A stretch of DNA of 64,000 bases from Pseudomonas oryzihabitans. GTDB lineage: Bacteria; Pseudomonadota; Gammaproteobacteria; Pseudomonadales; Pseudomonadaceae. The stretch is taken from the NCBI RefSeq assembly GCF_024652905.1, contig NZ_CP102428.1:818501-882500 (forward strand), in the 5' to 3' direction. The first letter of the stretch is position 1, and the number at the start of each line of letters is the position of its first letter. Both the position numbers and the translations under genes were made by a program. The notes under the pieces are model-generated. The model was given only the letters and a program-made list of their open reading frames with translations. It searched no databases and had not been told where the DNA came from. Shown piece after piece: positions 15,888 to 35,474 of the stretch.

Positions 15888-16352
15888 GGAAGCACTCCCG
15901 CCGTGCTGGTGACGCGCCTGATAGAAGTAATGGAGATAACAACAAGCAGGGAAAACATCGGAGTGCGGACACCCTGATGACATCGTTGTTATTGGATGAG
16001 GAACTGCGGCTAACCCGTTATCACTCTGGGATGATAACCAACGAAGGCAGCGTTTTTTCACCATTCGTCAGGTTTCGAGAGGTGGATTGAACTCGCTACG
16101 CAGATCAAGACAGACAGATTTGTTATGGGTTCCAATAACAATCGGCATCTGGCCAATCAGTGACGTTTGCTAGCTGAAATCTCTGGCAGGCAGCCTGGAG
16201 ACATACTTTCTGACAAAGCTCAGCCCTGTTGCGACGAACAACCGCAGCCCTGTGGATTGAATCGGTCGGTGAAGACTCAATATTGTGGAGGAGGGCAGCA
16301 CGCCCTGCCCGCTGTAGCTGTCCCTGACTGAGCGCTGGCTCGAGGAGTTTCC
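15888..16352. other. Divergent regulatory region, 465 bases, no gene seen
   Basis: This stretch separates the TorF-type gene from the small PA1414-like gene. It holds an inverted repeat GTTATCA (16017-16023) / TGATAAC (16032-16038) with an 8-base spacer, and two copies of TTGTTATTGG in opposite orientation (near 15985-15995 and 16130-16141) about 145 bases apart. These look like paired operator half-sites, but no regulator is assignable. No protein-coding frame with a credible start was seen. Confidence 0.4.
16257..16286 (+). promoter_or_regulatory. Sigma-70-like promoter for the small PA1414-like gene
   Basis: TTGAAT (16257-16262) and TATTGT (16281-16286) are separated by 18 bases, about 66 bases before the ATG at 16353. 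The match to the consensus is fair at both hexamers. No Anr/Fnr box was found nearby. Confidence 0.4.
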
Positions 16353-16484
16353 ATGAACGACCGTATACAAGCTCTGATGCTGGACCTGCTCGCCCGACTC
16401 GGCCTGGTGAAGGCCATCCCGATTCCCAGTCGCGAGCGCGAGCAGTTGGCCGCCCAACGGCGTCGCGCGCAGCAGCGTCGCTAA
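16353..16484 (+). CDS. PA1414-like small basic protein (43 residues)
   Basis: This short gene encodes a 43-residue protein beginning MNDRIQALMLDLLARLGLVK and ending in an arginine/glutamine-rich tail (RRRAQQRR). A strong ribosome site, GAGGAG, sits 5 bases before the ATG. Residues 4-20 form an amphipathic helix and the tail is highly basic. Its length and first half resemble the PA1414 family of pseudomonads, whose locus in P. aeruginosa is linked with an abundant, oxygen-responsive small RNA (SicX); this is from memory and not tested here. Hairpins follow the stop codon. It occupies the place next to aotP where argR lies in P. aeruginosa. Function is unknown. Confidence 0.6.
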   Translation: MNDRIQALMLDLLARLGLVKAIPIPSREREQLAAQRRRAQQRR

Positions 16485-23167: not shown

Positions 23168-24889
23168 CTAGGCCAGCAGCTGCTGCAGGATGTCGAGGGT
23201 ATCGGCTTCGGCCACCGGCTTGTCGTGGCGCCAGCGCAGCATCCGCGGAAAGCGCACGGCGACGCCGCTCTTGTGGCGCTTGGACAGGGCGATGCCCTCG
23301 AAACCCAGCTCGAACACCAGGGTCGGCTCGACACTGCGTACCGGGCCGAACTTCTCCACCGTGGTGCGGCGGACGATGGCATCCACCTTGCGCATCTCCT
23401 CGTCGGTAAGCCCCGAATAGGCCTTGGCGAAGGGCACCAGGGTACGTTCGTTGCTCTCCGGCGGACCGTCCCAGACGGCGAAGGTGTAGTCGGAATAGAG
23501 ACTGGCACGCCGCCCATGGCCGCGCTGGGCATAGATGAGCACCGCATCCACCGAGAAGGGATCGACCTTCCATTTCCACCAGGTGCCCATGTCCTTGGTA
23601 CGACCGACGCCATAGAGCGAATCCTGGGCCTTGAGCATCATGCCTTCGACCCCCAGGGTGCGTGAGGCCTCGCGCTGGCGGGCGAGATCCTGCCAGTCTT
23701 TGCCGTGTAGCAGCGGCGAGGGGCGCAGCAGCGGACTGGCGCAGCGCGCCACCACCCGTTCCAGCTCGGCGCGGCGCTGACGTTGCGGCTGGCTGCGCAG
23801 GTCGTGGCCCTGCCATTCGAGCAGGTCGTAGGCGAGCAGGATGACCGGTACGTCTTCGAGGATCTTCTTGCCCAGGGTCTTGCGGCCGATGCGTTGCTGC
23901 AGCAGGGCGAAGGGCTGCACGCCGAAGGGGATGGGCGCGGCCGGATCCTGGTCATCCTGGTGCTCGCTGACCTCCTCGCTGCTGAGCAGGGTGTCGGGGG
24001 CGGCGTCTTCCTTCCAGACCACGATCTCGCCATCGATCACGGTGCCATCGGGCAGCGATTCCGCGAGGGGATGCAGTTCGGGAAAGCGATCGGTGACCAG
24101 GTCCTCGCCCCGCGACCAGATCCACAGCCGGCCGTCACGCTTGACCAGCTGGGCGCGGATGCCGTCCCACTTCCATTCCACCTGCCAGTCTTCGGCCGGA
24201 CCCAGTTGCGCCTCGAATTGCTCCACCGGCAGTTGCAGGGCATGGGCGAGAAAGAAGGGGTAGGGTTGGCCACCGCGCTGGGCGTGTTCGTCCGGACTTT
24301 CCGGGGCGACCAGGCGCGCATAGCCCTCGGCGGTGGGGCGATGGGAGAGATCGGTATAACCCACCAGGCGCTGGGCGACCCGCTTGGGATCCAGGTCCGC
24401 CAGGGTGGCCAGGGCGCGGGTCACCAGTAGCTTGGAGACACCGACGCGGAATTCGCCGGTGATCAGCTTGATGCAGACCATCAGACTCTGGCGATCCAGC
24501 TCGCCCCAGAGCGGCGGCAGGCGCTCGGCCAGCTCTTCCGGCGGCAGCCCGCGCAGGGGGAGCAGGTATTCCTCCAGCCAGAAGGCCAAGCCTTCGGCAT
24601 TGGCGGCATCGGCGGTGGGGATAAGCAGTGCCATGGTCTCGGCCAGGTCGCCGACCGCCTGGTAGCTCTCCTCGAACAGCCACTCGGGCAGGCCGGAGAG
24701 GGCCATGGTCAGCTCACGCAGCTGGCGCGTCGGCACCAGGCGCCGGGGGCGGCCGCCGGCGAGGAAGTACACCGCCCAGGCGGCATCCGCGGCCGGGGCG
24801 CTGCCGAAGTAGTCCACCAGGGCGGCCAGCTTGGCGTTGCTGGAGGTGGTGGCGTCGAGACGGCCATAGAGTTCGGCGAAGGCCTTCAT
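23168..24889 (-). CDS. ATP-dependent DNA ligase (nuclease-associated type)
   Basis: A 573-residue DNA ligase. The N-terminal DNA-binding domain is about 1-200. The adenylation motif I is EWKWDGIRAQL, with the lysine that takes AMP; motif III is GTVIDGEIVVW, and the OB-fold has WWKWKVDP (motif V) and the C-terminal VRFPRMLRWR (motif VI). The organisation matches the ATP-dependent ligase found beside an MPE-type nuclease and Lhr helicases in many bacteria, and linked to cisplatin damage responses. The ATG overlaps the nuclease stop as ATGA, so the two are translationally coupled. It is distinct from LigD and from NAD-dependent LigA. Confidence 0.9.
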   Translation of the reverse strand: MKAFAELYGRLDATTSSNAKLAALVDYFGSAPAADAAWAVYFLAGGRPRRLVPTRQLRELTMALSGLPEWLFEESYQAVGDLAETMALLIPTADAANAEGLAFWLEEYLLPLRGLPPEELAERLPPLWGELDRQSLMVCIKLITGEFRVGVSKLLVTRALATLADLDPKRVAQRLVGYTDLSHRPTAEGYARLVAPESPDEHAQRGGQPYPFFLAHALQLPVEQFEAQLGPAEDWQVEWKWDGIRAQLVKRDGRLWIWSRGEDLVTDRFPELHPLAESLPDGTVIDGEIVVWKEDAAPDTLLSSEEVSEHQDDQDPAAPIPFGVQPFALLQQRIGRKTLGKKILEDVPVILLAYDLLEWQGHDLRSQPQRQRRAELERVVARCASPLLRPSPLLHGKDWQDLARQREASRTLGVEGMMLKAQDSLYGVGRTKDMGTWWKWKVDPFSVDAVLIYAQRGHGRRASLYSDYTFAVWDGPPESNERTLVPFAKAYSGLTDEEMRKVDAIVRRTTVEKFGPVRSVEPTLVFELGFEGIALSKRHKSGVAVRFPRMLRWRHDKPVAEADTLDILQQLLA

Positions 24890-25905
24890 GCCTGGGCCTC
24901 CGTGGCGACGGGGGTGTCGTCTTCCTCACCGTATTCGGTGGTGAAGCCCTGGGCGTCCAGACCTTGATCGCGCAGATAGCGCACCAGGGTGGCCACCGAA
25001 CCATGGGTGACCATCACCCGCTCGGCGCCAGTCTGCTCAATGGCCCACAGCAGGCCCGGCCAGTCAGCGTGGTCGGAGAGCACGAAGCCACGATCCACTC
25101 CGCGCCGACGGCGGGTGCCGCGCAACATCATCCAGCCGCTGGCGAAGGCGTCGCTGTGCTCGCCGAAGCGGCGGATCCAGGTGCTGCCGCCGGCCGAGGG
25201 CGGGGCGATGATCAGCGCCTGGCGCAACGTGGGGTCGCTCTTCTTGAAGTCGCCGGCATAGTGGGTCTCGGGGATGCGAATCCCGGCCTCGCGATAGACC
25301 CGGTTCAGGGGTTCCACCGCGCCATGGGCGAGGATGGGGCCGATCTCCGGATCCAGGCCGTGCAGGAGCCGCTGCGCCTTGCCGAAGGCATAGCTGTAGA
25401 GGACGCTGGCCAGTCCCTGGGCCTGGTTGGCGCGCCACCATTCATTGACCTCGGCGAAGATCTCCGCCTGGGGTCGCCAGCGATAGATCGGCAAGCCAAA
25501 GGTGGATTCGGTGATGAAGGTATGGCAGCGCACCGGCTCGAAGGGGGTGCAGGTGCCATCGGGCTCCACCTTGTAATCACCCGAGGCCACCCAGACCTCG
25601 CCACGGTATTCCAGGCGCACTTGCGCCGAGCCCAGCACATGGCCGGCCGGATGGAAGCTCAGCTTGACCCCGTGGTGGTCGATGACCTCGCCGTATTCCA
25701 GGGTCTGGAGGTTGATGTCGGCCCCCAGCCGGGCGCGCAGGATGCCGGCACTGCCCGAGGTGGCGAGATAGTGACCGTTGCCTACCCGGGCATGGTCGCC
25801 GTGGCCATGGGTGATGACCGAACGTTCCACCGGATGCCAGGGATCGATGTAGAAGTCGCCGGGCGGGCAGTAGAGGCCGTCCGGGCGGGCGATGACGAGG
25901 TCCAT
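24886..25905 (-). CDS. Ligase-associated metallo-beta-lactamase nuclease (MPE type)
   Basis: A 339-residue metallo-beta-lactamase-fold nuclease of the CPSF/SNM1 class (also called ligase-associated DNA exonuclease or MPE). The metal motif HxHxDH is THGHGDHA near residues 32-39, with further ligands in SFHPAGHVLGSAQV, ASGDYKVE and LSDHADWPG. Family members are manganese-dependent single-strand DNA nucleases acting with the partner ligase in repair. It is first of the nuclease-ligase-FUSC unit and starts 61 bases after cobA, which may also read into it. Confidence 0.88.
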   Translation of the reverse strand: MDLVIARPDGLYCPPGDFYIDPWHPVERSVITHGHGDHARVGNGHYLATSGSAGILRARLGADINLQTLEYGEVIDHHGVKLSFHPAGHVLGSAQVRLEYRGEVWVASGDYKVEPDGTCTPFEPVRCHTFITESTFGLPIYRWRPQAEIFAEVNEWWRANQAQGLASVLYSYAFGKAQRLLHGLDPEIGPILAHGAVEPLNRVYREAGIRIPETHYAGDFKKSDPTLRQALIIAPPSAGGSTWIRRFGEHSDAFASGWMMLRGTRRRRGVDRGFVLSDHADWPGLLWAIEQTGAERVMVTHGSVATLVRYLRDQGLDAQGFTTEYGEEDDTPVATEAQA

Positions 25906-25966
25906 GGGCGCCGCTCTGCTGGGGGATTACCCATAGGAACGGCGGCGGGGTGCCTGAGTTCGCCGC

Positions 25967-26713
25967 TCAGGCCTGGGCGGCGAAGCTCAGCGCCTGTTGC
26001 AGAGCCGCCTGGCCCACCACCTCGCCGATCACCAGGATCGCCGGACTGCGCAACTGGAAGAGGGCGGCGTCCACCTGCAGGTCCTGCAGGGTCGAGCGGC
26101 ACTCGCGTTGGCTGGGCAGGGAGGCGTTCTCGATCATGGCCACGGGGGTGGTCAGCGCGAGACCACCATCCAGCAGACCCTGCTGAATCTCGGCCAGACG
26201 CGCCACGCCCATGTAGACCACCAGGGTAGTGCCAGTGGCCGCCAGGGCGGGCCAGTTGGGCGCGCTGTCGTCCTGGGTGTGGGCGGTGACCAGGGTAACG
26301 CCGCGGGCCACGCCCCTCAGGGTCAGGGAGATGCCGCAGGCGGTGGCGCCGGCCAGGCCGGCAGTGATGCCATTGACGATCTCGCTGCTGACGCCGCGGG
26401 CGGCCAGCCATTCGGCTTCCTCGCCAGCACGCCCGAAGATACAGGGATCGCCACCCTTGAGCCGGGCCACGCAACGGCCCTGGCGGGCGTAGCGCAGCAT
26501 CAGCCGGTGGATGAAGGCCTGTGGCGTGGAGCGGCAGCCGCCGCGCTTGCCGACGCGGATCACCCGGGCGGCCGGGCAGTGTTCGAGCACCGCCGGATTG
26601 ACCAGGTCATCGATCATCACCACCTCGGCCTCGCCCAGGGCGCGTACCGCCTTGAGGGTCAGCAACTCGGGATCGCCGGGGCCGGCGCCGATCAACCAGA
26701 CTTTCCCGCTCAT
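25967..26713 (-). CDS. cobA: Uroporphyrinogen-III C-methyltransferase CobA
   Basis: A 248-residue SAM-dependent methyltransferase that makes precorrin-2 from uroporphyrinogen III, for sirohaem (nitrite and sulfite reductase) and cobalamin. Marks are the N-terminal VWLIGAGPGDPELLTLKA, YARQGRCVARLKGGDPCIFGR, EIVNGITAGLAGATACGISLT and VVYMGVARL. It lacks the CysG N-terminal dehydrogenase/ferrochelatase part. The ATG at 26713 follows GAGAGG. In P. aeruginosa cobA follows nirBD; here it stands alone behind its own sigma-54 promoter and an ANTAR-type attenuator, which supports a job in nitrate assimilation. Confidence 0.92.
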   Translation of the reverse strand: MSGKVWLIGAGPGDPELLTLKAVRALGEAEVVMIDDLVNPAVLEHCPAARVIRVGKRGGCRSTPQAFIHRLMLRYARQGRCVARLKGGDPCIFGRAGEEAEWLAARGVSSEIVNGITAGLAGATACGISLTLRGVARGVTLVTAHTQDDSAPNWPALAATGTTLVVYMGVARLAEIQQGLLDGGLALTTPVAMIENASLPSQRECRSTLQDLQVDAALFQLRSPAILVIGEVVGQAALQQALSFAAQA

Positions 26714-26751: not shown

Positions 26752-26791
26752 AAAAAAAAGGCGTCCCGCTGCAAGCAGCTGGGACGCCTTT
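26752..26791 (-). terminator. Attenuator terminator in the cobA leader
   Basis: A perfect 11-bp stem (26757-26767 with 26781-26791; AAAGGCGTCCC/GGGACGCCTTT on the minus strand) around a 13-base loop, followed by eight U on the minus strand (A run 26752-26759). It lies 38 bases before the cobA ATG and downstream of the predicted sigma-54 start, so cobA is expressed only when transcription passes it. It can also end the nrt transcript. Confidence 0.88.
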
Positions 26792-26827
26792 GTCCAAAGG
26801 GTCTTTCCTCGCCGTTGAAGAAAGACC
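26782..26827 (-). promoter_or_regulatory. ANTAR-type two-hexaloop antiterminator RNA, cobA leader
   Basis: On the minus strand, hairpin 1 (26800-26827) has an 11-bp stem with one G-U pair and the hexaloop AACGGC. Hairpin 2 (26782-26795) has the stem GGAC/GTCC and the hexaloop AAAGGC. Both loops have A at position 1 and G at position 4, the ANTAR recognition pattern. Four bases separate the hairpins. Hairpin 2 shares ten bases with the 5' arm of the terminator, so the two structures exclude each other. The NIT-ANTAR protein encoded at 30389-31633 is the obvious ligand. Confidence 0.8.
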
Positions 26828-26844
26828 GCTGATAGCTAGCAGGG

Positions 26845-26860
26845 TGCACGCTTCATGCCA
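26845..26860 (-). promoter_or_regulatory. Sigma-54 promoter for cobA
   Basis: The minus strand reads TGGCATGAAGCGTGCA from 26860 to 26845: the -24 GG and -12 GC are separated by exactly 10 bases, and TGGCAT fits the -24 consensus; GTGCA differs from TTGCA by one base. The predicted start is near 26834, 7 bases before antiterminator hairpin 1. Confidence 0.65.
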
Positions 26861-26913
26861 GCTGCCGCCTGCCCGCATTCTGCGGTGATCCGAGCCGATA
26901 GCCACCGACGGCT

Positions 26914-26952: not shown

Positions 26953-27753
26953 TCAGGCCACCGCGCCGGGGTGGCTGTGCTTTTCATAGAGAAAGCTCAG
27001 CACCGCGTGGCGATAGCCGTTGTAGCGCGGATCGTCCACCAGGGTGATGCGATCGCGAGGCCGCGGCAGGTCGATGGTGAGGATTTCACCGATGGTGGCC
27101 GCCGGGCCGTTGGTCATCATGACGATGCGATCCGAGAGCAGTACTGCCTCGTCCACGTCGTGGGTGATCATCATCACCGTATTGCGCAATTCGCTCTGGA
27201 TGCGCATCACTTCGTCCTGCAGATGCGCCCGGGTGAGGGCATCCAGGGCGCCGAAGGGTTCGTCCAGCAAGAGCACCTTAGGCTGCATGGCCAGGGCGCG
27301 GGCGATGCCGACCCGCTGCTTCATACCGCCGGAGATTTCGCTGGGCCTCTTGTGCAGGGCATGGCCCATGTTGACCATTTCCAGGTTGTGCAGCGTCCAG
27401 GCGTGGCGTTCGGCCTTGCTCTTGGTGCCCTTGAACACCTTGTCCACCGCCAGGGCGACGTTCTCGTAGACGGTCAGCCAGGGCAGCAGCGAATGGTTCT
27501 GGAACACCAGGCTGCGCTCGGGACCCGGACCGCGGACCTCGCGATTCTCCAGCAGGATCGAGCCGGAGGTCGGCTCGATCAGGCCGGCGACGATGTTGAG
27601 CACCGTGGACTTGCCGCAGCCGGAGTGGCCGATGATGGAGATGTACTCGCCGCGCTCGATCTTGAGATTGACGTCGCGCAGCACCGTGGAGGTGAGGCCG
27701 TTGCGGGTGAAGCTCTTGTCGATATGCTCGATGCTCAGATAGGGCTGGGCCAT
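26953..27753 (-). CDS. nrtD: Nitrate ABC transporter ATPase (NrtD/NasD type)
   Basis: A 266-residue ABC ATPase of the nitrate/sulfonate/taurine class. Walker A GHSGCGKST is near 43-51, Q-loop VFQNHSLLPW, signature ISGGMKQRVGIA, Walker B VLLLDEPFGALD and H-loop ITHDVDEAV. The sequence around PGPERSLVFQNHSLLPWLTV and the length fit the NrtD/NasD group, lacking the regulatory C-terminal domain of NrtC. It energises nitrate uptake by NrtB with the periplasmic NrtA. The gene was presumably 12 bases after nrtB before the MITE-like insertion separated them. Confidence 0.88.
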   Translation of the reverse strand: MAQPYLSIEHIDKSFTRNGLTSTVLRDVNLKIERGEYISIIGHSGCGKSTVLNIVAGLIEPTSGSILLENREVRGPGPERSLVFQNHSLLPWLTVYENVALAVDKVFKGTKSKAERHAWTLHNLEMVNMGHALHKRPSEISGGMKQRVGIARALAMQPKVLLLDEPFGALDALTRAHLQDEVMRIQSELRNTVMMITHDVDEAVLLSDRIVMMTNGPAATIGEILTIDLPRPRDRITLVDDPRYNGYRHAVLSFLYEKHSHPGAVA

Positions 27754-27765
27754 GATGGGAATCCT

Positions 27766-27954
27766 CTAGTGTGGTGCTTCAGAAGTTCGCGCAAGAATTG
27801 GCGAGTGATTTTTGTTCGGTTCGGCGCCCCGAGCGGGCTAGGCGCCCCGAGCGGGCTAGGCGCCCCGAGTGGCAACGCCGCCCCGGGCGGTCCGCCGCTG
27901 CGGGCAAAAAGCGCTGCCAAAATTGGGTAGATAGCTTCTGAAACACCGCACTAG
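27766..27954. mobile_element. MITE-like element at the nrtB stop codon
   Basis: This 189-bp segment is bounded by 20-bp terminal inverted repeats (27766-27785 and 27935-27954) matching at 18 of 20 positions, each beginning CTAGTG. Weaker inverted similarity continues inward (TTGGC...TTTTTG on both sides). The middle holds an 18-bp unit GGCGCCCCGAGCGGGCTA twice in tandem (27823-27840, 27841-27858) plus a partial third. It has no coding capacity. Both ends carry CTAG, one of which supplies the TAG stop of nrtB; removing the element with one CTAG restores a tight nrtB-nrtD junction with AGGATT before the nrtD ATG. That supports recent insertion with TA or CTAG duplication. Confidence 0.7.
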
Positions 27955-28796
27955 TTCGCGGTGCCGCGGGTGACCAGACGACCGATGAAGGCCACCAGCC
28001 GGTCGAGCAGGAAGCCGATGACGCCGACGTAGACCAGCGCCAGGATGATGTCGCTGATGCGCGAGGCGTTCCAGGCATCCCAGATGAAGAAGCCGATGCC
28101 GACGCCGCCGATCAGCATCTCGGCGGCGATGATGGCCAGCCAGGACAGGCCGACACCGATGCGCAGGCCGGAGAAGATGTAGGGCGCCGCCGCCGGCAGC
28201 ATGATCTTCTGGAAGTACTCCCAGCCATTGAGGCGCAGCACCCGCGCCACGTTGCGGTAGTCCTCGGGAATGTTGCGGATGCCCACCGAGGTATTGATGA
28301 TGATCGGCCAGATGGCGGTGATGAAGATGACGAACAGGGCCGAGGGGTGGCTGTCCTTGAAGCCGGCCAGGGACAGCGGCAGCCAGGCCAGCGGTGGCAC
28401 GGTGCGCAGCACCTGGAACAACGGATCGAGGCCGCGCATGGCCCAGACCGACTGGCCCACCAGCACGCCCAGGGCGATGCCCGCCACCGCGGCCAGCAGG
28501 TAGCCGTAGGCGACGCGCTCGAGGCTGGCCAGCAGTTGCCAGGCCATGCCCACGTCATTGCCGCCGTTGTCGTAGAAGGGCTGGGTGATCAGCTCCCAGG
28601 TGTCGCTGACCACCTGGCTAGGCGGCGGCAAGGCCGCGCCGGGACGGCTGCACAGCAGCTGCCAGACAATCAGTAGCAAGGCGCCCACCACCAGCGGGGG
28701 CAGGCCATTGCGTAGCACCTGCTGGCCAAGCCGACGCAGGCGGGTTTGCGGGCGAAAGGTGGCGAGGGCCTTGGGTGGCCAAGTGTGGGCGTTCAT
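27951..28796 (-). CDS. nrtB: Nitrate ABC transporter permease (NrtB/NasE type)
   Basis: A 281-residue inner-membrane permease with six likely transmembrane segments, the first at about 33-50 (LVVGALLLIVWQLLC). Marks of the nitrate/taurine permease family are PPLAWLPLSLAGFKDSHPSALFVIFITAIWPIIINTSVGIRNIP and the inner loop with VARVLRLNGWEYFQKI. The stop codon TAG coincides with the right end of the MITE-like element. It lies 31 bases downstream of the broken nrtA. Confidence 0.88.
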   Translation of the reverse strand: MNAHTWPPKALATFRPQTRLRRLGQQVLRNGLPPLVVGALLLIVWQLLCSRPGAALPPPSQVVSDTWELITQPFYDNGGNDVGMAWQLLASLERVAYGYLLAAVAGIALGVLVGQSVWAMRGLDPLFQVLRTVPPLAWLPLSLAGFKDSHPSALFVIFITAIWPIIINTSVGIRNIPEDYRNVARVLRLNGWEYFQKIMLPAAAPYIFSGLRIGVGLSWLAIIAAEMLIGGVGIGFFIWDAWNASRISDIILALVYVGVIGFLLDRLVAFIGRLVTRGTAN

Positions 28797-28827
28797 GGGC
28801 GAAACTCCTCTGGCAAAAGGGGGGACG

Positions 28828-30152
28828 TCAGACCTTGAGCGTCAGGCTGGCGAGATAGGCCTTGGGATCGGCGGGATCGAACACCTTGCCGTCGAAGAAG
28901 GTTTCCGTGCCGCGCGAGTTGCCGCTGGGGATGTCGCCGGTCGGCACGCCGATGGCCGCCGCCGCTTCGCGCCAGAGATCGGCGCGGTTGACCTTGGCGA
29001 TCAGCCCCTGGGCATCCAGATCGCCGGGCAGATAGCCCCAGCGCTGGTTCTCGGTGATGAACCAGAGATCGTGGCTCTGATAGGGGAAGGAGGCGTGCTC
29101 GTTCCAGAACTTCATCACGTGCGGGCTGTTCTGCACGACCCGGCCAGTGCCGTAGTCGAAGGTGCCCTGCAGGCGGCCGACCACGTCGTCGGCGGGCGCG
29201 CCAATCCAGCGGCGCTTGGCACAGATCTCGGCGACCTTGGCCTTGTTGGCCGCCACGTCGCAATACTGCTGAGCTTCCAGTACCGCCTTGAGCAGTGCCA
29301 GGGTGGCCCGGGGATTGGCCTGGACGTAGTCGGCGCGCAGGGCCAGGGCCTTCTCTGGGTGGTTGGCCCAGAGTTCGCCGGTGGTCAGGGCGCTGTAGCC
29401 GATGTTCTGCTTGATCAGCTGGGCGTTCCAAGGCTCGCCGACGCAGAAGGTGTCCATGTTGCCCACCTTCATGTTGGCCACCATCTGCGCCGGGGCACTA
29501 CCAAAGTGGTGATGTCCCGATTCGGATCTATGCCATTGGCCGCCAGCCAGTAGCGGATCCAGAGATCATGGGTACCGCCGGGAAAGGTCATGGCCGCCGA
29601 GGTCTTCTTGCCGGCGGCCTGGCGGGCGGCCAGGGCGCTCTTGAAGTCACTGGCGTCGAGGCCGATCTTCTGCTCCCGGTAGTCGTTGGACAAGGAGATG
29701 CCCTGGCCGTCGACGTTCAGGCGGGCCAACAGCGCCATGGGCAACGGCTGGCCATTGGGGGTGATCTTGCCGGCGGCCAGCTGATAGACCATGGGCGTGA
29801 GGATATGGGCGCCGTCGATACCGTTGGCCGCCGAGCCCAGCACCAGGTTATCGCGGGTGGTGCCCCAGGAGGACTGCTTGAGCACCTCCACCTCGGTCAT
29901 GCCGTACTTGGCGAACAGTCCCAGCTCATCGGCGACGAACAGCGGGGCAGCATCTGTGAGGGCGATGAAGCCGAGCTTGGCCTTGGTCGTCTCCACGGTA
30001 TCGCTGCCCGCTGCCCAGGCGGCGGATTTCAGACCGGGCGGCAGCAGACTGAGGGCCGCGCCCGCGCCCAGCATACCGAGCGACTGCTTGAGGAAACTGC
30101 GGCGGGGGAGTCCACGACCGGCCTGGTCATCGTTACGGGAGTTGTCGTCCAT
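28828..30152 (-). pseudogene. nrtA: Nitrate-binding protein NrtA, split by a one-base frameshift
   Basis: Read as one protein of about 441 residues, this is a CmpA/NrtA-family substrate-binding protein with a Tat signal (RRSFLKQSLG, residues 17-26) and nitrate-site segments such as GFIALTDAAPLFVA and GTHDLWIRYWLA. The first frame runs from 30152 and ends soon after DITTLVVP; the second frame continues as AQMVANMKVGNMDTFCVGEPWN to 28828. The break is at the run of four G on the plus strand, 29492-29495: one more G would restore VVPPAQMVA. Either the gene is inactive in this strain or a homopolymer base was lost in sequencing. The ATG follows AAGGAC. Confidence 0.85.
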
Positions 30153-30176: not shown

Positions 30177-30262
30177 AAAAAAACGGCGCCCACGCTCGGC
30201 AGCCGTGGCTGCGAGGGTGGACGCCGTCGTCCGGGAGATGCTGTGGGAGCGAAACTCGCTCA
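30177..30262 (-). promoter_or_regulatory. Attenuator leader of the nrt operon
   Basis: From the predicted start near 30262 the minus strand shows a 6-bp hairpin (30247-30261, GAGCGA/TCGCTC), then a GGAC/GTCC hairpin with hexaloop GACGGC (30219-30232), then a long terminator stem (about 30183-30203 with 30207-30226) followed by seven U (30177-30183). The second hairpin overlaps the terminator 5' arm. The layout repeats that of the cobA leader, with the same GGAC/GTCC stem, but loop position 1 is G rather than A and the first hairpin has no clean hexaloop. It ends 24 bases before the nrtA ATG. Confidence 0.65.
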
Positions 30263-30271
30263 GGAGGGTGA

Positions 30272-30289
30272 TTGCAGAGACCGTGCCAA
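30272..30289 (-). promoter_or_regulatory. Sigma-54 promoter of the nrt operon
   Basis: The minus strand reads TTGGCACGGTCTCTGCAA from 30289 to 30272. The -24 element TTGGCAC is perfect, GG and GC are exactly 10 bases apart, and CTGCA differs from TTGCA by one base. The expected start is near 30262, at the 5' edge of the leader hairpin. Confidence 0.72.
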
Positions 30290-30388: not shown

Positions 30389-31633
30389 TCAGCCGGGCTG
30401 CGCCAGGATCCGGCGGACCACCTCGGCCAAGGCCACGCCGCTGCGCATCGCCAGGCGCTGCAGATGCTGATGAGCTTCGGCTTCGGGCAGCGCCAACTGC
30501 TCCATGAGACGCTGCTTGGCGCGCTCCAGCAGCTTGCGTTCGGCCAGCGCTTGGCGAGTCTCCTGCAATTCCGCCTCGACCTCGTGCAGCCGCCGGGTCT
30601 GGGCCTGCAGCAGGTCGAGGATGCCGGCGGGCGCCTCGCCCGGCCCAGTGTCGCTCACCGGATTGGCCGCCAGGCTGAACAGCAGCGGCTGACCCGGTTC
30701 GCGGTCGAGTTCGGCCAGCCGCCGCGACAGTTTGCGGTGGCTGTCGAGATCAGCCTGGGCGTCCCTGATGCTGGCCGCGCACCGGGTCCGCAAGGCCGCC
30801 ACCAGATGCTGGGCCACTGCCTGCATGGCATCCAGACGACGGGTATTGAGCTCGAACCAGAGCTCGGCGAGGACCCCTGCCACCGGCGTGGTCGGTGAGG
30901 TGCGCCGGGCCATGGTGCGCAGCTGTTCGATCTGCTGCCGTGAGGCGCAGCCCTGGACCTCGTCCCAGATGGCGGCTGCCCGGGCGTCGGCGTGGTCGAG
31001 GAAGCCGGCGAAGCAGCGCAGCTGGCCACCGTCCAGTTCATCCAGGCGCGCCAGCAGATCCTGGTCGAAGTAGCCCTGGGCGAAGCCGACGACGCCCACC
31101 GCCCGAGCCTGGCCCGCCAGTTCCTTGCCCTGCATGAAGTTGAACAGGGCGACCAGCGCGCGGCTCAAACCTGGATCGCTGGCCGTGTCCGCCGCCTCGA
31201 AGATGACCGCCAGCAGGCTGCCGATAAGGTGCGAGAAGGTACCCGTGGCCTGCTGCATCTGCACCCGGCGTTCGACGATGGCGCGTCTCAGGCCGCTCAG
31301 GCCATCGAGCAGGTGCAGGACACAGGCGATGCGATTGAGCAGCCGGGGCCGTTCCTGGGTCACCCGGGCATCGAGGGCCTCCAGGCAGGCGCGCAGCCCA
31401 GCCTCGCTGTGACGCGCGGTCGTCGAATGCTGCTCCAGCGCGGTGCGGTAGCGATCGTTGCCGGTACCCAGCAGAACATTGCTGAAACCTCGCTCGCGCT
31501 GCAGGTCATGCACCAGTTCACTGGCGCGTTCCACCAGCTCGCACGTCAGGGCGAGCCCTTCCAGCTGCTGCAATTCGCAGCGCCGCGCCGCGAGCATGAA
31601 GCGCAGGGCGGGGGGCATCTGGTGATCGGACAT
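30389..31633 (-). CDS. nasR: Nitrate-sensing NIT-ANTAR antiterminator (NasR type)
   Basis: A 414-residue soluble regulator. Residues about 20-290 form an all-helical NIT nitrate/nitrite-sensing domain (VHDLQRERGFSNVLLGTG is the typical opening), and the last ~60 residues are an ANTAR RNA-binding domain: RKLLERAKQRLMEQLALPEAEA and HLQRLAMRSGVALAEVVRRI. In Klebsiella the NasR protein binds a two-hexaloop leader RNA when nitrate is present and stops early termination. Both target leaders appear in this island. The ATG at 31633 (MSDHQMPP) was chosen; a GTG 51 bases upstream is possible, and neither has a strong ribosome site. It lies 63 bases after the kinase gene. Confidence 0.85.
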   Translation of the reverse strand: MSDHQMPPALRFMLAARRCELQQLEGLALTCELVERASELVHDLQRERGFSNVLLGTGNDRYRTALEQHSTTARHSEAGLRACLEALDARVTQERPRLLNRIACVLHLLDGLSGLRRAIVERRVQMQQATGTFSHLIGSLLAVIFEAADTASDPGLSRALVALFNFMQGKELAGQARAVGVVGFAQGYFDQDLLARLDELDGGQLRCFAGFLDHADARAAAIWDEVQGCASRQQIEQLRTMARRTSPTTPVAGVLAELWFELNTRRLDAMQAVAQHLVAALRTRCAASIRDAQADLDSHRKLSRRLAELDREPGQPLLFSLAANPVSDTGPGEAPAGILDLLQAQTRRLHEVEAELQETRQALAERKLLERAKQRLMEQLALPEAEAHQHLQRLAMRSGVALAEVVRRILAQPG

Positions 31634-31696: not shown

Positions 31697-33367
31697 TCAG
31701 TGCCGATAGAGCCAGAGCAGTATCAGCAACAGATTCAGCGTCAGCGAACAGGTCGCCACGATCTGCCAGGTGCGCAGGGGATCGCGCTGCAGCAGCGGCA
31801 AGGGGCGGGTCAGGGGTTGGCGTTCGCCTTGTTCCAACAGCAGCAGGGCTTCTTCGGCGGTTTCGAAGCGATCGCCCGGCTCTACCGCCACGGCGCGTTG
31901 CAGCCAGTCTTCCAGCCAGGCCGGCGCATCCGGGCGCCGGCGCAGGACGCTGGCGGGCGCGCCGAAGCGTGGGCGCTGGAAGGGTTCCACCTCGCCGTAG
32001 GGATAGCCGCCGGTCAGCAGCTGGTAGAGGGTCACGCCAGCGGCATAGAGATCCTGGGTCGGACTCGGCGCGGCGCCCTCGAAGGACTCCGGAGCGCGGT
32101 AGCTGGGGGTGCCCGGGCTGTCCTGCAGATCCTGGGACAGTTGCGGGCAATAGGCCAGGCCAAAATCCAGCAGGCGCAGCTCACCGTCCTGGCCGCGATG
32201 CAGATTGTCCGGCTTGATGTCACGATGGAGGATGTTGCGTCGGTGCAGCTGGCCGAGGGCACGCAACAGGCGTGAGGCGACGTCCAGCCAGTCGGCCAGC
32301 GCCAGGGGTCCGTCGCTGGCCAGCTGTTGTGCCAGGGTGCGCCCGGGATACTCGCGCTGCACGAAATAGAGATGGGCGCGCTGGGGCAGCGGATGCACCT
32401 CGACGAAGGCGCGGCCGGCGACGCGGCGCAGGAACCATTCCTCCATGAGCAGGGCATGACCGGCCAGGGTGTCGAATTGCAGCGCCGCGGGCAGGGTCTT
32501 GAGCAGCCAGGGGCGGCCAGCTTCGTCCGTGACCCTATAGAGCAGCGATTGCCGCGATTCGGCCAGACGCTCCACCACCGTCCAGCCTTCGAAGGCCTGG
32601 CCGGGCTTCAAGGCGGGCAGCGGCGGCCAGGTATCGGCATTGGCCAGGGTGTCGGCCAGGGAGATGTCCGGTAGGCGGTCGACCCGCACCAGCAGGGCGC
32701 TGGCGTTATCCTGGCCGCCGGCATGCAGGGCGCCGGCAACCAGAGCCTGGGCCGTAGCATCCAGATCCATGACGCCATCGACCAGGATATGCCTCATGCT
32801 GTCTTCGCCCAGTGCCGCCCAGACGCCGTCACTCACCAGCAGCAGGGTTTCGCCGGCGTCCAGCTCGCCTTCGCGAAAATCCACCACCAGGTGGTTCTCC
32901 AGCCCCAGGGCCCGAGTCAGCACATGCTGCATGCCGGCCTGCTGCCAGACGTGGTCGACGGTGAGACAGGTCAGCCGACCGCCATGCCAGCGATAGGCAC
33001 GGCAGTCGCCGACATGGGCCAGGGTGTAGCGCCGCCCGCGGATCACCAGGGCGGTAAGGGTCGTCAGCAGTGGCTGGCCATTGCCGGCGGCCTGCAGCCA
33101 GCGATTCTGCGCCAGCAGCAGCCGTTCCAGGGCCTGGGCCACCGGCCAGGTCTCCGGCGTGGAGTAGTAGTCCTGGGCCAGGGCCTGGAGCGTCGCGCGC
33201 GCGGCCAGGCCACCGTCCGGACAGCCGCTGACGCCATCGGCCAGGGCGAACAGATGTCCCTTGGTCGCCGCCAGGGCCGCACTGGGCTGGACGCTGCGCA
33301 AGGCGTCCTGGTTTTCCTTGCGCGGACCGGTCGCGGTGGCTTCGGCAAAGGCGAGTTCTAGGGGCAT
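31697..33367 (-). CDS. PP2C phosphatase - Ser/Thr protein kinase fusion, membrane anchored
   Basis: A 556-residue two-enzyme protein. Residues about 1-240 are a PP2C phosphatase with metal aspartates in FALADGVSG, AHVGDCRAY, LLLVSDGVW and GGQDNAS. Residues about 265-520 are a Hanks-type kinase: lysine in PWLLKTLP, catalytic loop ILHRDIKPDN, DFG in LLDFGLAY, and the GTPSYRAPE segment. A single C-terminal transmembrane helix (IVATCSLTLNLLLILLWL) anchors it with both domains in the cytoplasm. P. aeruginosa has a kinase of this kind (PA1782) in its nitrate assimilation cluster. The start at 33367 is the first ATG that keeps the PP2C domain; the frame is open for 49 unrelated codons before it. Confidence 0.85.
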   Translation of the reverse strand: MPLELAFAEATATGPRKENQDALRSVQPSAALAATKGHLFALADGVSGCPDGGLAARATLQALAQDYYSTPETWPVAQALERLLLAQNRWLQAAGNGQPLLTTLTALVIRGRRYTLAHVGDCRAYRWHGGRLTCLTVDHVWQQAGMQHVLTRALGLENHLVVDFREGELDAGETLLLVSDGVWAALGEDSMRHILVDGVMDLDATAQALVAGALHAGGQDNASALLVRVDRLPDISLADTLANADTWPPLPALKPGQAFEGWTVVERLAESRQSLLYRVTDEAGRPWLLKTLPAALQFDTLAGHALLMEEWFLRRVAGRAFVEVHPLPQRAHLYFVQREYPGRTLAQQLASDGPLALADWLDVASRLLRALGQLHRRNILHRDIKPDNLHRGQDGELRLLDFGLAYCPQLSQDLQDSPGTPSYRAPESFEGAAPSPTQDLYAAGVTLYQLLTGGYPYGEVEPFQRPRFGAPASVLRRRPDAPAWLEDWLQRAVAVEPGDRFETAEEALLLLEQGERQPLTRPLPLLQRDPLRTWQIVATCSLTLNLLLILLWLYRH

Positions 33368-33440
33368 GGAAGGGGCGCCGGCAGGGAGGGGCGACAGCCG
33401 ATGCAAAAGCGATACCCGTTCACCGGACGCCCCCGGCCCC

Positions 33441-35474
33441 TCACCAGATTTCCACGCGTTTCTCGTCCGGTCGGACCATGGCATCGCCCACCTTGCAGCT
33501 GAACGCCTGGGCAAAGGACGGCATGTTGGACGGCGCGCCGATGGCGCGGAATCTCATGGGCGCATGGGGATCGGTGTTGAGCGAGAGGCGTAGCTGTTCC
33601 TCACGCACAGAGCTGCGCCAGACCCGTGCCCAGTTGAGGAAGAAGCGCTGCTGCTGGGTGTAGCCATCGAGGGTGCGGTTGGCTTCCTCCGGCTTCTTCG
33701 CCAGCGCCAGTTGCAGGGCGTCGTAGGCTGCATTGATGCCGCCGAGATCGCCGATGTTCTCGCCCAGGGTGAGCTTGCCGTTGACGTGCAGGTCCGGGTG
33801 GTCCGGCAGCGGACGATAGTTGTCGAATTGCTCAACCAGCTTGCCGGTGCGGGCCTCGAAGGCCTTGCGATCGGCCGGGGTCCACCAGTCCACCTGGTTG
33901 CCGGCGCCGTCGAACTTGCTGCCCTGGTCGTCGAAACCATGGCTGGCCTCGTGGCCGATCACCGCGCCGATACCGCCGTAGTTGATGGCATCGTCGCCGT
34001 CCGGATAGAAGAACGGCGGCTGCAGGATGGCGGCGGGGAAGTTGATGGTGTTGTCGGTGGGGCTGTAGTAGGCATTGACCGTCTGCGGGTACATGCCCCA
34101 TTCCTGGCGGTCGGTGGGCTTGCCGATCTTGTCCAGGTCATGGCGATAGTTGAAGCGCGAGGCGGCTTCCAGGTTGGCGTAGAAGCCCTGGGACTTGAGG
34201 GTAAGGCCGCTCCAGTCGCGCCAGCGCTCGGGATAGCCGATCTTGGGCAGGAAGCTGTCCCACTTGGCCAGCGCCTTCTGCTTGGTCTCGGGGCTCATCC
34301 AGTCGAGCCGCTCGATGCGCGCCTTGAGCGCCAGCATCACGTTGTCCACCAGCTCCTGGGCGCGGGCCTTGGCCTGGGGCGAGAAGTGCTCCTGCACATA
34401 GAGCTGGCCAAGGCCTTCGCCCATGGCACCGTTGACTGCGCGCAGCACCCGCTTCCAGCGTTCGCTCTGCTGCTGCTGGCCGCTTAGGGTCTTCTGGTTG
34501 AAGTCGAAGCTCTCCTGCTGGAAGGGCTTGGACAGGAGCGGCGCGGCATCGTCGATCACATGGGCGCGCAGATAGGCCTGCCATTGCTCGATGGGGGTCT
34601 CGGCCAGCATCCGGTCGAATTCGGCGAAGAAGCCGGGCTGGGACAAGGAAAAACCCTGCTGGCCAGTGACGCCCTGGCTGGCGAAGAAGGCTTGCCAGTC
34701 GAAATGCGGCGTGACCTTGTTGGCTTCGGCGAAGCTCAGGTAATGATACTGGTTCTCCGGATTGCGCAGCTCCACCGGCTTGACCGAGGCGCGCGCCAGG
34801 CGACTCTCGAAGGCCAGTACCAGCTCGGCCTGGGCGGCCGCCTGGGCCTTGGATACCCCGGTCAGGACCAGCAGTCGGGCGATGTGACCCAAATAGGCCT
34901 GGCGCAGCTTGGCGTAGTCGGCCTCGGTGTAGTAATCGGGGGTGGGCAGGCCCAGGCCGCTCTGGTAGGCATAGGCGATCTGCTGCTTGGCATTCTGGTA
35001 GTCGGCGCCGGAACCGAAGGAGAACACCTGCATGTCGCCGCGGGCGAAGCTCTGTTGCAGGTACTTCACCACGTCGGCCGTGGTGCGTAGCTCATCGATG
35101 GCGGCCAGTTGCGCCTGGATCGGCTGATAGCCGGCGCGCTCGATGGCGGCTTCGTCCATGCCCGAGCGATACAGCCAGCCGATCTTCTGTTCTACCGAAC
35201 CCGCTTCCGCGCGATCCGCCGAGCGCGCGGCACGTTGCAGGATGGCGTGCTGGTCGTTGAGTGATTTTTCCCCCAGGGCCATGAAGGAACCCCAGCGCGA
35301 CTTGTCCGGCGGGATGGGGTTGGCCGCCACCCACTTGGCATTGACGAAGGTGTCGAGGTCGGTACAGGCGGTTGCCGGGTCACCCAGTTCGGTGACATCG
35401 AACACAGGGGCGGCGAAAGCCTGGCTGCCAAGCAGCAGGCCGATGGTCAGGGCGAGGGGTTTCAACGCAGGCAT
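33441..35474 (-). CDS. M13-family zinc metallopeptidase (PepO/neprilysin-like)
   Basis: A 677-residue secreted peptidase. The signal peptide is about 1-21 (MPALKPLALTIGLLLGSQAFA). The zinc motif HExxH is HEASH in VIGHEASHGFDDQGSKFD, and the third ligand fits the glutamate of ENIGDLGG; the substrate-binding NAYYSPTDNTINFPA is also present. The C-terminus, EKRVEIW, ends with the tryptophan typical of the family. It should cleave small peptides in the periplasm. The ATG at 35474 was chosen from the signal peptide; the open frame continues 40 codons upstream into a dispersed repeat. It precedes the kinase gene by 73 bases on the same strand. Confidence 0.88.
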   Translation of the reverse strand: MPALKPLALTIGLLLGSQAFAAPVFDVTELGDPATACTDLDTFVNAKWVAANPIPPDKSRWGSFMALGEKSLNDQHAILQRAARSADRAEAGSVEQKIGWLYRSGMDEAAIERAGYQPIQAQLAAIDELRTTADVVKYLQQSFARGDMQVFSFGSGADYQNAKQQIAYAYQSGLGLPTPDYYTEADYAKLRQAYLGHIARLLVLTGVSKAQAAAQAELVLAFESRLARASVKPVELRNPENQYHYLSFAEANKVTPHFDWQAFFASQGVTGQQGFSLSQPGFFAEFDRMLAETPIEQWQAYLRAHVIDDAAPLLSKPFQQESFDFNQKTLSGQQQQSERWKRVLRAVNGAMGEGLGQLYVQEHFSPQAKARAQELVDNVMLALKARIERLDWMSPETKQKALAKWDSFLPKIGYPERWRDWSGLTLKSQGFYANLEAASRFNYRHDLDKIGKPTDRQEWGMYPQTVNAYYSPTDNTINFPAAILQPPFFYPDGDDAINYGGIGAVIGHEASHGFDDQGSKFDGAGNQVDWWTPADRKAFEARTGKLVEQFDNYRPLPDHPDLHVNGKLTLGENIGDLGGINAAYDALQLALAKKPEEANRTLDGYTQQQRFFLNWARVWRSSVREEQLRLSLNTDPHAPMRFRAIGAPSNMPSFAQAFSCKVGDAMVRPDEKRVEIW

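Follow-up and report, generated by a model that had tools for sequence, protein, structure and literature searches.

On the reverse strand of the window, by which we mean the whole 64-kb stretch of DNA analysed here, lies cobA (25967-26713, with its ATG at 26713), whose product is a uroporphyrinogen-III C-methyltransferase (TIGR01469, 289.6 bits against a cut-off of 185; PF00590 is the only Pfam match). This enzyme performs the first step of sirohaem synthesis, and sirohaem is the cofactor of nitrite reductase. Upstream on the same strand are the nitrate ABC transporter genes nrtABC (26953-30152; nrtA 30152-28828, nrtB 28796-27951, nrtC 27753-26953) and nasR (30389-31633), which encodes a NIT nitrate/nitrite sensor joined to an ANTAR domain (PF08376, PF03861). 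NasR is a relative of 4akk, a nitrate regulatory protein, and has no NCBIfam match; the end of its gene and the leader described below, further downstream, are about 3.5 kb apart. The reading frame of nrtA (28828-30152, reverse strand) is divided into two frames here and is a single open frame in six relatives from the genus (loci L018-L022 and L072), so that the split is either a sequencing error or a real defect. A fusion of a protein phosphatase 2C and a serine/threonine kinase (31697-33514, reverse strand) adjoins nasR; the same fusion has cobA as its neighbour at loci L133 and L134, and a narK-like gene at L130-L132.

Downstream of cobA, 61 bases (25905-25967, reverse strand) with no listed terminator lead to a metallo-hydrolase-like frame (24886-25905), which has no Pfam match over the cut-off and may be a ligase-associated exonuclease. 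An ATP-dependent DNA ligase gene follows, and nitrate-driven read-through could reach both genes. Elsewhere in the genome, a second methyltransferase frame of 485 codons (C1:1607805) is 45% identical to cobA over the shared part and CysG-like by size only. Since this other methyltransferase may make sirohaem under other conditions, cobA looks like a nitrate-specific supply.

Architecture and fold of the cobA leader

The region directly upstream of cobA contains, all on the reverse strand, the parts of a transcription attenuator. A sigma-54 (-24/-12) promoter element, TGGCATGAAGCGTGC, lies at 26846-26860 with GG-N10-GC spacing. Placing the C of its GC at -12 gives a predicted +1 at 26834, so that the first hairpin begins at +8, after seven bases. 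This hairpin, P1 (26800-26827), has 11 bp and the hexaloop AACGGC (26816-26811). Four bases (26799-26796) separate it from P2 (26782-26795), a GGAC/GTCC stem with the hexaloop AAAGGC that corresponds to the antiterminator state. Both loops have A at position 1 and G at position 4 (A1/G4). An intrinsic terminator (26752-26791) overlaps P2: its 5' arm, AAAGGCGTCCC (26791-26781), has ten bases in common with the hairpin, and eight T (26759-26752) close the leader. The preliminary description had named every one of these parts, and promoter spacing, hairpins, distances, loops and shared bases were all recovered as it gave them. Only the terminator needed refinement: upon folding, its stem continues beyond a bulged A by four pairs, and three of the eight U pair with AAA.

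The 86-base leader folds into P1 plus terminator at -43.1 kcal/mol (z -6.27), a stability reached by none of 200 shuffles. A scan for two A1/G4 hexaloops with an overlapping terminator found one place in the 64-kb window and none in 100 dinucleotide shuffles. The promoter element taken alone would be weak evidence, as TGGCAYN6TGC matches the window six times against 2.2 expected and two of 100 shuffles also reach six. The search for NtrC sites returned 74 matches against 109 expected, below chance, and found no convincing site near the cobA promoter. The terminator is missing from the output of a generic terminator scan of the window, we think because the bulge violates its rule of an uninterrupted stem.

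ANTAR leaders are defined by two hairpins of at least 3 bp carrying A1/G4 hexaloops, as outlined in PMC3369931. The cobA leader has two such hairpins, its terminator overlaps the second, and the genome encodes exactly two ANTAR proteins: NasR and NasT, the latter beside NasS.

Relation to known RNA families

At gathering thresholds, Rfam gives no match anywhere in the window. In a relaxed scan, P11 (RF00625) matches from promoter through terminator (26760-26872, reverse strand; model positions 1-139) with 45.8 bits and an E-value of 6.4e-8, below its gathering score of 70; scores for the 12 further cobA leaders in the genus range from 47.7 to 68.5 bits. The covariance search that had been suggested earlier thus yields nothing at the gathering threshold and a strong full-length match beneath it. 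Joint alignment and covariation support homology over the whole P11 model, with helices in common. The narK RNA (RF03032) matches over both hairpins with 31.2 bits (E 0.003), below its gathering score of 43.2. Rfam lists P11 as a gene (sRNA) and not as a cis-regulator. From its position and parts, we infer that P11 is the NalA leader known from nirBD operons.

Conservation and covariation

Of 57 genomes searched, that of the window among them, 26 have a close cobA orthologue, at 73.8% identity or more. The leader lies immediately 5' of cobA and on its strand in all 13 genomes of the genus, and in none of the 13 orthologues from other Pseudomonadaceae genera. We aligned 30 leaders: 15 of the nirB type, the 13 cobA leaders and two weaker matches, one before another NirB-like gene (genome G025) and one before a frame without an assigned name (G042). 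TGGCA-N7-TGC, A1 and G4 of both loops and CAAAGGCG are invariant in all 30. The lack of a covariance hit together with loss of the loops in related genomes had been put forward beforehand as one observation that would speak against the preliminary reading; the loops are conserved.

Across the alignment, 86.7% of P1 cells are paired, with changes on both sides in nine of 11 pairs, and the terminator reaches 91.8%, with such changes in eight of 13 pairs. P2 is paired in 100% of cells; double changes occur in three of its four pairs, all of them from the G025 and G042 rows. P2 being nearly invariant, its support consists of this invariance and of two sequences. For the combined antiterminator state (P1 and P2), 90.3% of cells pair against a shuffled mean of 73.4%, and 12 of 15 pairs changed on both sides; for P1 and terminator, the values are 89.5% against 75.2% and 17 of 24. 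In both tests none of 500 shuffles reaches the observed covariation score, and sliding the partners by one to three columns lowers the score strongly; it is this slid control, and not the shuffle control, that allows for relatedness. Pairing and covariation above both controls make P1 and the terminator well supported.

An exact pattern for the compact form of the leader gave 19 matches in 11 of the 13 genus genomes (ten before cobA, eight before nasA and one before the NirB-like gene of G001) and none in a reversed control. Mismatches or long linkers kept the nasA leader and those of G001, G005 and G012 from being picked up by our initial hairpin scan, and P11 matches and reading by eye were used for these. 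Taken together, the cobA leader is real and conserved, and in all likelihood functional.

Further leaders of the same kind in the genome

In the window's genome nirB, nasA, nrtA and cobA each have a sigma-54 leader of their own. Here nirB faces away from nasA, which is fused to a flavoprotein reductase. The fusion to a CysJ-like reductase (1343 aa; L128, 10682-14713, forward strand), divergent from nirB, is found in ten of the 13 genus genomes; in the remaining three, a shorter nasA precedes cobA. The nasA leader combines a sigma-54 core, a P1 loop AACGCC, a P2 loop AAAGGC with one stem mismatch and a terminator, and is visible by eye in all ten genomes with the fused nasA. In the nirB leader, a sigma-54 core and a P1 loop AACGGC are followed by a long linker, P2 as AGGC-AAAGGC-GCCT and a terminator; these same ten genomes show its promoter and P1, in stretches that end before P2. 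Neither of these two leaders of the window's genome gives a P11 match at E 10.

The fourth leader lies in front of nrtA, the gene after nasR (30177-30288, reverse strand), with a sigma-54 element at 30288-30274, P2 as GGAC-GACGGC-GTCC and a terminator. Its 5' hairpin has no A1/G4 hexaloop, and the second loop starts with G in all seven genus leaders read (the window, L018-L022 and L072).

Distribution and origin

P11 matches at E 1e-6 or better occur in 103 of 148 Pseudomonadaceae genomes. Two per genome are found in only three of the 148, G001, G005 and G012, all from the window's genus, where one lies before a NirB-like gene and the other between nasA and cobA. In the other ten genus genomes, the window's included, the sole match at this level is the one before cobA. 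Ninety genomes of other genera have a P11 match in this survey, and its position relative to cobA was established for 12 (E < 1e-5); in these the best match shares the strand of cobA and precedes the gene by 1.2 to 6.0 kb. From this distribution, the likely order of events is that the leader was copied first, giving an arrangement like that of G001, G005 and G012, and that the operon then broke up.

Behind each of the 15 nirB-type leaders lies a frame that, where it matches the NirB of G012, is 71-100% identical to it. A whole NirB stands behind the P11 leader in G012 and G005. In G001, G022, G025 and G027 (L130, 7585-9069, reverse strand; L138; L139; L140) the gene behind P11 is NirB-like in its N-terminal half only, and the G001 frame has no Pfam match to a nitrite reductase domain; rather than being a nitrite reductase, this half-NirB may serve nasA as a reductase partner. 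The remaining nine frames were compared up to the end of the fetched stretch, which lies inside the gene.

Azoarcus indigens was considered as another possible example of a leader private to cobA and set aside. At about 16130-16413 (forward strand) of locus L089, a sigma-54-like core and a hexaloop leader precede a uroporphyrinogen methyltransferase gene, judged by eye. A NirB-like frame stands behind this gene, so the leader seems to head an operon.

NasR, NasT and the leaders beside them

Within the genus, a NasT-type protein is present in all 13 genomes and NasR in eight, and nrtB is found in exactly those eight. The cobA leader is thus conserved together with NasT (13 of 13 each), as expected of a NalA-like NasT target, and not together with NasR, as a Klebsiella-type NasR target would be. 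It is kept without NasR in five genomes, among them the three with P11 before both a nirB-like gene and cobA. In G002 and G003 the order is serine/threonine protein kinase, leader, cobA, with no nasR or nrtABC between them and no NasR elsewhere; their NasS and NasT are 93-99% identical to those of the window's genome. P11 at E < 1e-5 occurs in 25 of the 57 genomes (the own included), all of which encode an ANTAR protein without a NIT fusion, with NasR in eight of the 25. The 12 genomes of other genera with P11 leaders contain such an ANTAR protein and no NasR. NasS-NasT was confirmed by sequence comparison in the window's genome (G000) and in G001, G002, G003, G005 and G012, and elsewhere by domain score and frame; the short ANTAR protein of other genera could be AmiR. 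A further short ANTAR protein is present in G001, G005, G012 and G011. Two genomes of other genera, G018 and G024, have NIT-ANTAR frames of NasR size and no P11, G018 together with a short ANTAR protein.

The leaders linked to NasR were scored as well. We picked 36 of 80 such loci by hand, not at random; 31 yielded a P2 core and five did not (L042, L061, L063, L066 and L079). By a simple scoring of the upstream A1/G4 hexaloop hairpin, none of 25 Pseudomonadaceae NasR-linked leaders reaches 3 (best 2.5), as against 27 of 30 P11-type leaders, although in four of these 27 (L135, L137, L138 and L145) the best hairpin is not P1. The rows outside the 27 are L139, which scored 2, and L148 and L162, whose first loop is also AAAGGC and which were mis-cut. 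Among NasR-linked leaders from other families, five of seven score 3.5 or more. The Pseudomonadaceae leaders directly behind nasR may be single-hexaloop ANTAR targets, and the nrtA leader with its non-canonical loops is a likelier NasR target than the cobA leader. The third loop base (C or A) was considered as a discriminator between NasR and NasT and rejected, as two NasR-linked leaders, from Variovorax and Thioalkalivibrio (L093 and L096), have AAAGGC as their second loop. NasR-type proteins can therefore probably read such RNA.

Discussion

The mechanism of the cobA leader is known and its position is new: the operon is broken up, and the cofactor gene has kept a switch for itself. We consider it probable that it works as a NalA/P11-type attenuator, with a sigma-54 start, termination by default and antitermination in response to nitrate, most likely by NasT, as part of a regulon of four units. 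Under nitrogen limitation, sigma-54 RNA polymerase would start at 26834, as the invariant promoter core suggests. To judge by fold and covariation, the nascent leader would by default form P1 and the terminator, halting transcription before cobA. Sensing of nitrate or nitrite would lead an ANTAR protein, most probably NasT freed from NasS, to bind both A1/G4 hexaloops, hold P2 and block the terminator, so that cobA is transcribed and sirohaem made for NirB. Binding of an ANTAR dimer to P1 and P2 is the general antitermination model presented in PMC3369931. The genes cobA, nirB, nasA and nrtA would in this way form four separate units of one antitermination regulon. The parts of this scheme, their conservation, covariation and co-occurrence are read from the sequences, and the use of sigma-54, the response to nitrate and the binding by NasT are carried over from relatives.

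The preliminary description had seen cobA as a separate nitrate-controlled unit, switched on by nitrate-bound NasR, and not as the tail of nirBD. The separate unit stands, given the leader of its own with sigma-54 and ANTAR-type parts and a distance of 1.6 Mb between nirB (C1:2441686) and cobA (C1:844470) in this genome. The assignment to NasR, the weak point of that description, found only partial support: the leader is of the ANTAR type and NasR is a genuine NIT-ANTAR protein, encoded close by. Klebsiella NasR moreover selects two hexaloops with A1/G4 (PMC7496416), the very positions present here, which makes NasR possible as sole or second reader, and the AAAGGC loops of L093 and L096 point the same way. 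Nevertheless, we regard NasR as an unlikely main reader with NasT in a minor role or uninvolved, as the leader is kept in the five genus genomes that lack NasR, the leader right behind nasR looks different and its Pseudomonadaceae counterparts fall short of the two-hexaloop form. The constant presence of NasT-type proteins and the 12 genomes of other genera without NasR make NasT the more likely main reader.

Somewhat less probable still is that the cobA leader is a target of NasT and NasR alike, so that nitrate would act on sirohaem synthesis by two routes. Both proteins are encoded in the genome, and the known targets of NasR and NasT share the two-hairpin motif (PMC7496416); against this stands again the conservation of the leader without NasR. 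That the element is mainly a terminated small RNA, or a plain terminator after nrtC that leaves cobA unregulated, appears very improbable. The strength of the terminator and the filing of P11 as a gene in Rfam would fit it; yet the leader stands directly 5' of cobA on its strand throughout the genus, P1 and the terminator covary, and G002 and G003 retain it with no nrtC in front. As for the regulon as a whole, we tentatively suggest a division in which the two-hexaloop leaders of nirB, nasA and cobA are targets of NasT and the non-canonical, single-hexaloop leader of nrtA is a target of NasR, the two sets having drifted apart. If this is true, nitrate uptake could be set apart from reduction and cofactor supply. 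The genome is also a natural setting in which to test how far two ANTAR proteins that respond to similar signals have RNA targets in common, or partition them, within one cell. More generally, the case shows how an RNA switch that served a whole operon can outlast the operon's fragmentation: every piece, down to a lone cofactor gene, comes to have a promoter and switch of its own.

Finally, we would like to compare the cobA leader with the systems it resembles. In P. aeruginosa and relatives, the nirBD-cobA operon has been reported to be preceded by a NalA leader that contains sigma-54 boxes and a terminator (PMC3973561, PMC8092218, PMC12830290); NasT acts on this leader of nirBD in P. aeruginosa and P. 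putida (PMC12830290, PMC8092218), and deletion of nasT abolishes growth of P. putida on nitrate (PMC7261876). Judging by titles and the openings of abstracts, we found no report of a cobA-specific leader. The novelty lies in the position, with a copy of the switch before cobA that is kept where nirBD and nasA are far off. With the NalA leader of P. aeruginosa nirBD-PA1779-cobA, the cobA leader shares the predicted sigma-54 promoter, two hexaloop hairpins, the second being GGAC-AAAGGC-GTCC, the overlapping terminator, the context of nitrate assimilation and a full-length covariance match to P11. Unlike NalA, it precedes cobA alone instead of heading an operon, and its linker between P1 and P2 is shortened, to four bases in the window, with a score below the P11 gathering threshold. 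From the narK RNA it differs in its downstream gene, judging by the name of that family. The leader of Klebsiella oxytoca nasF, which is read by NasR, likewise represents nitrate-controlled ANTAR antitermination through A1/G4 hexaloops; in contrast, the reader of the cobA leader is more likely NasT, and the switch drives a cofactor gene and not an operon for transport and reductase.
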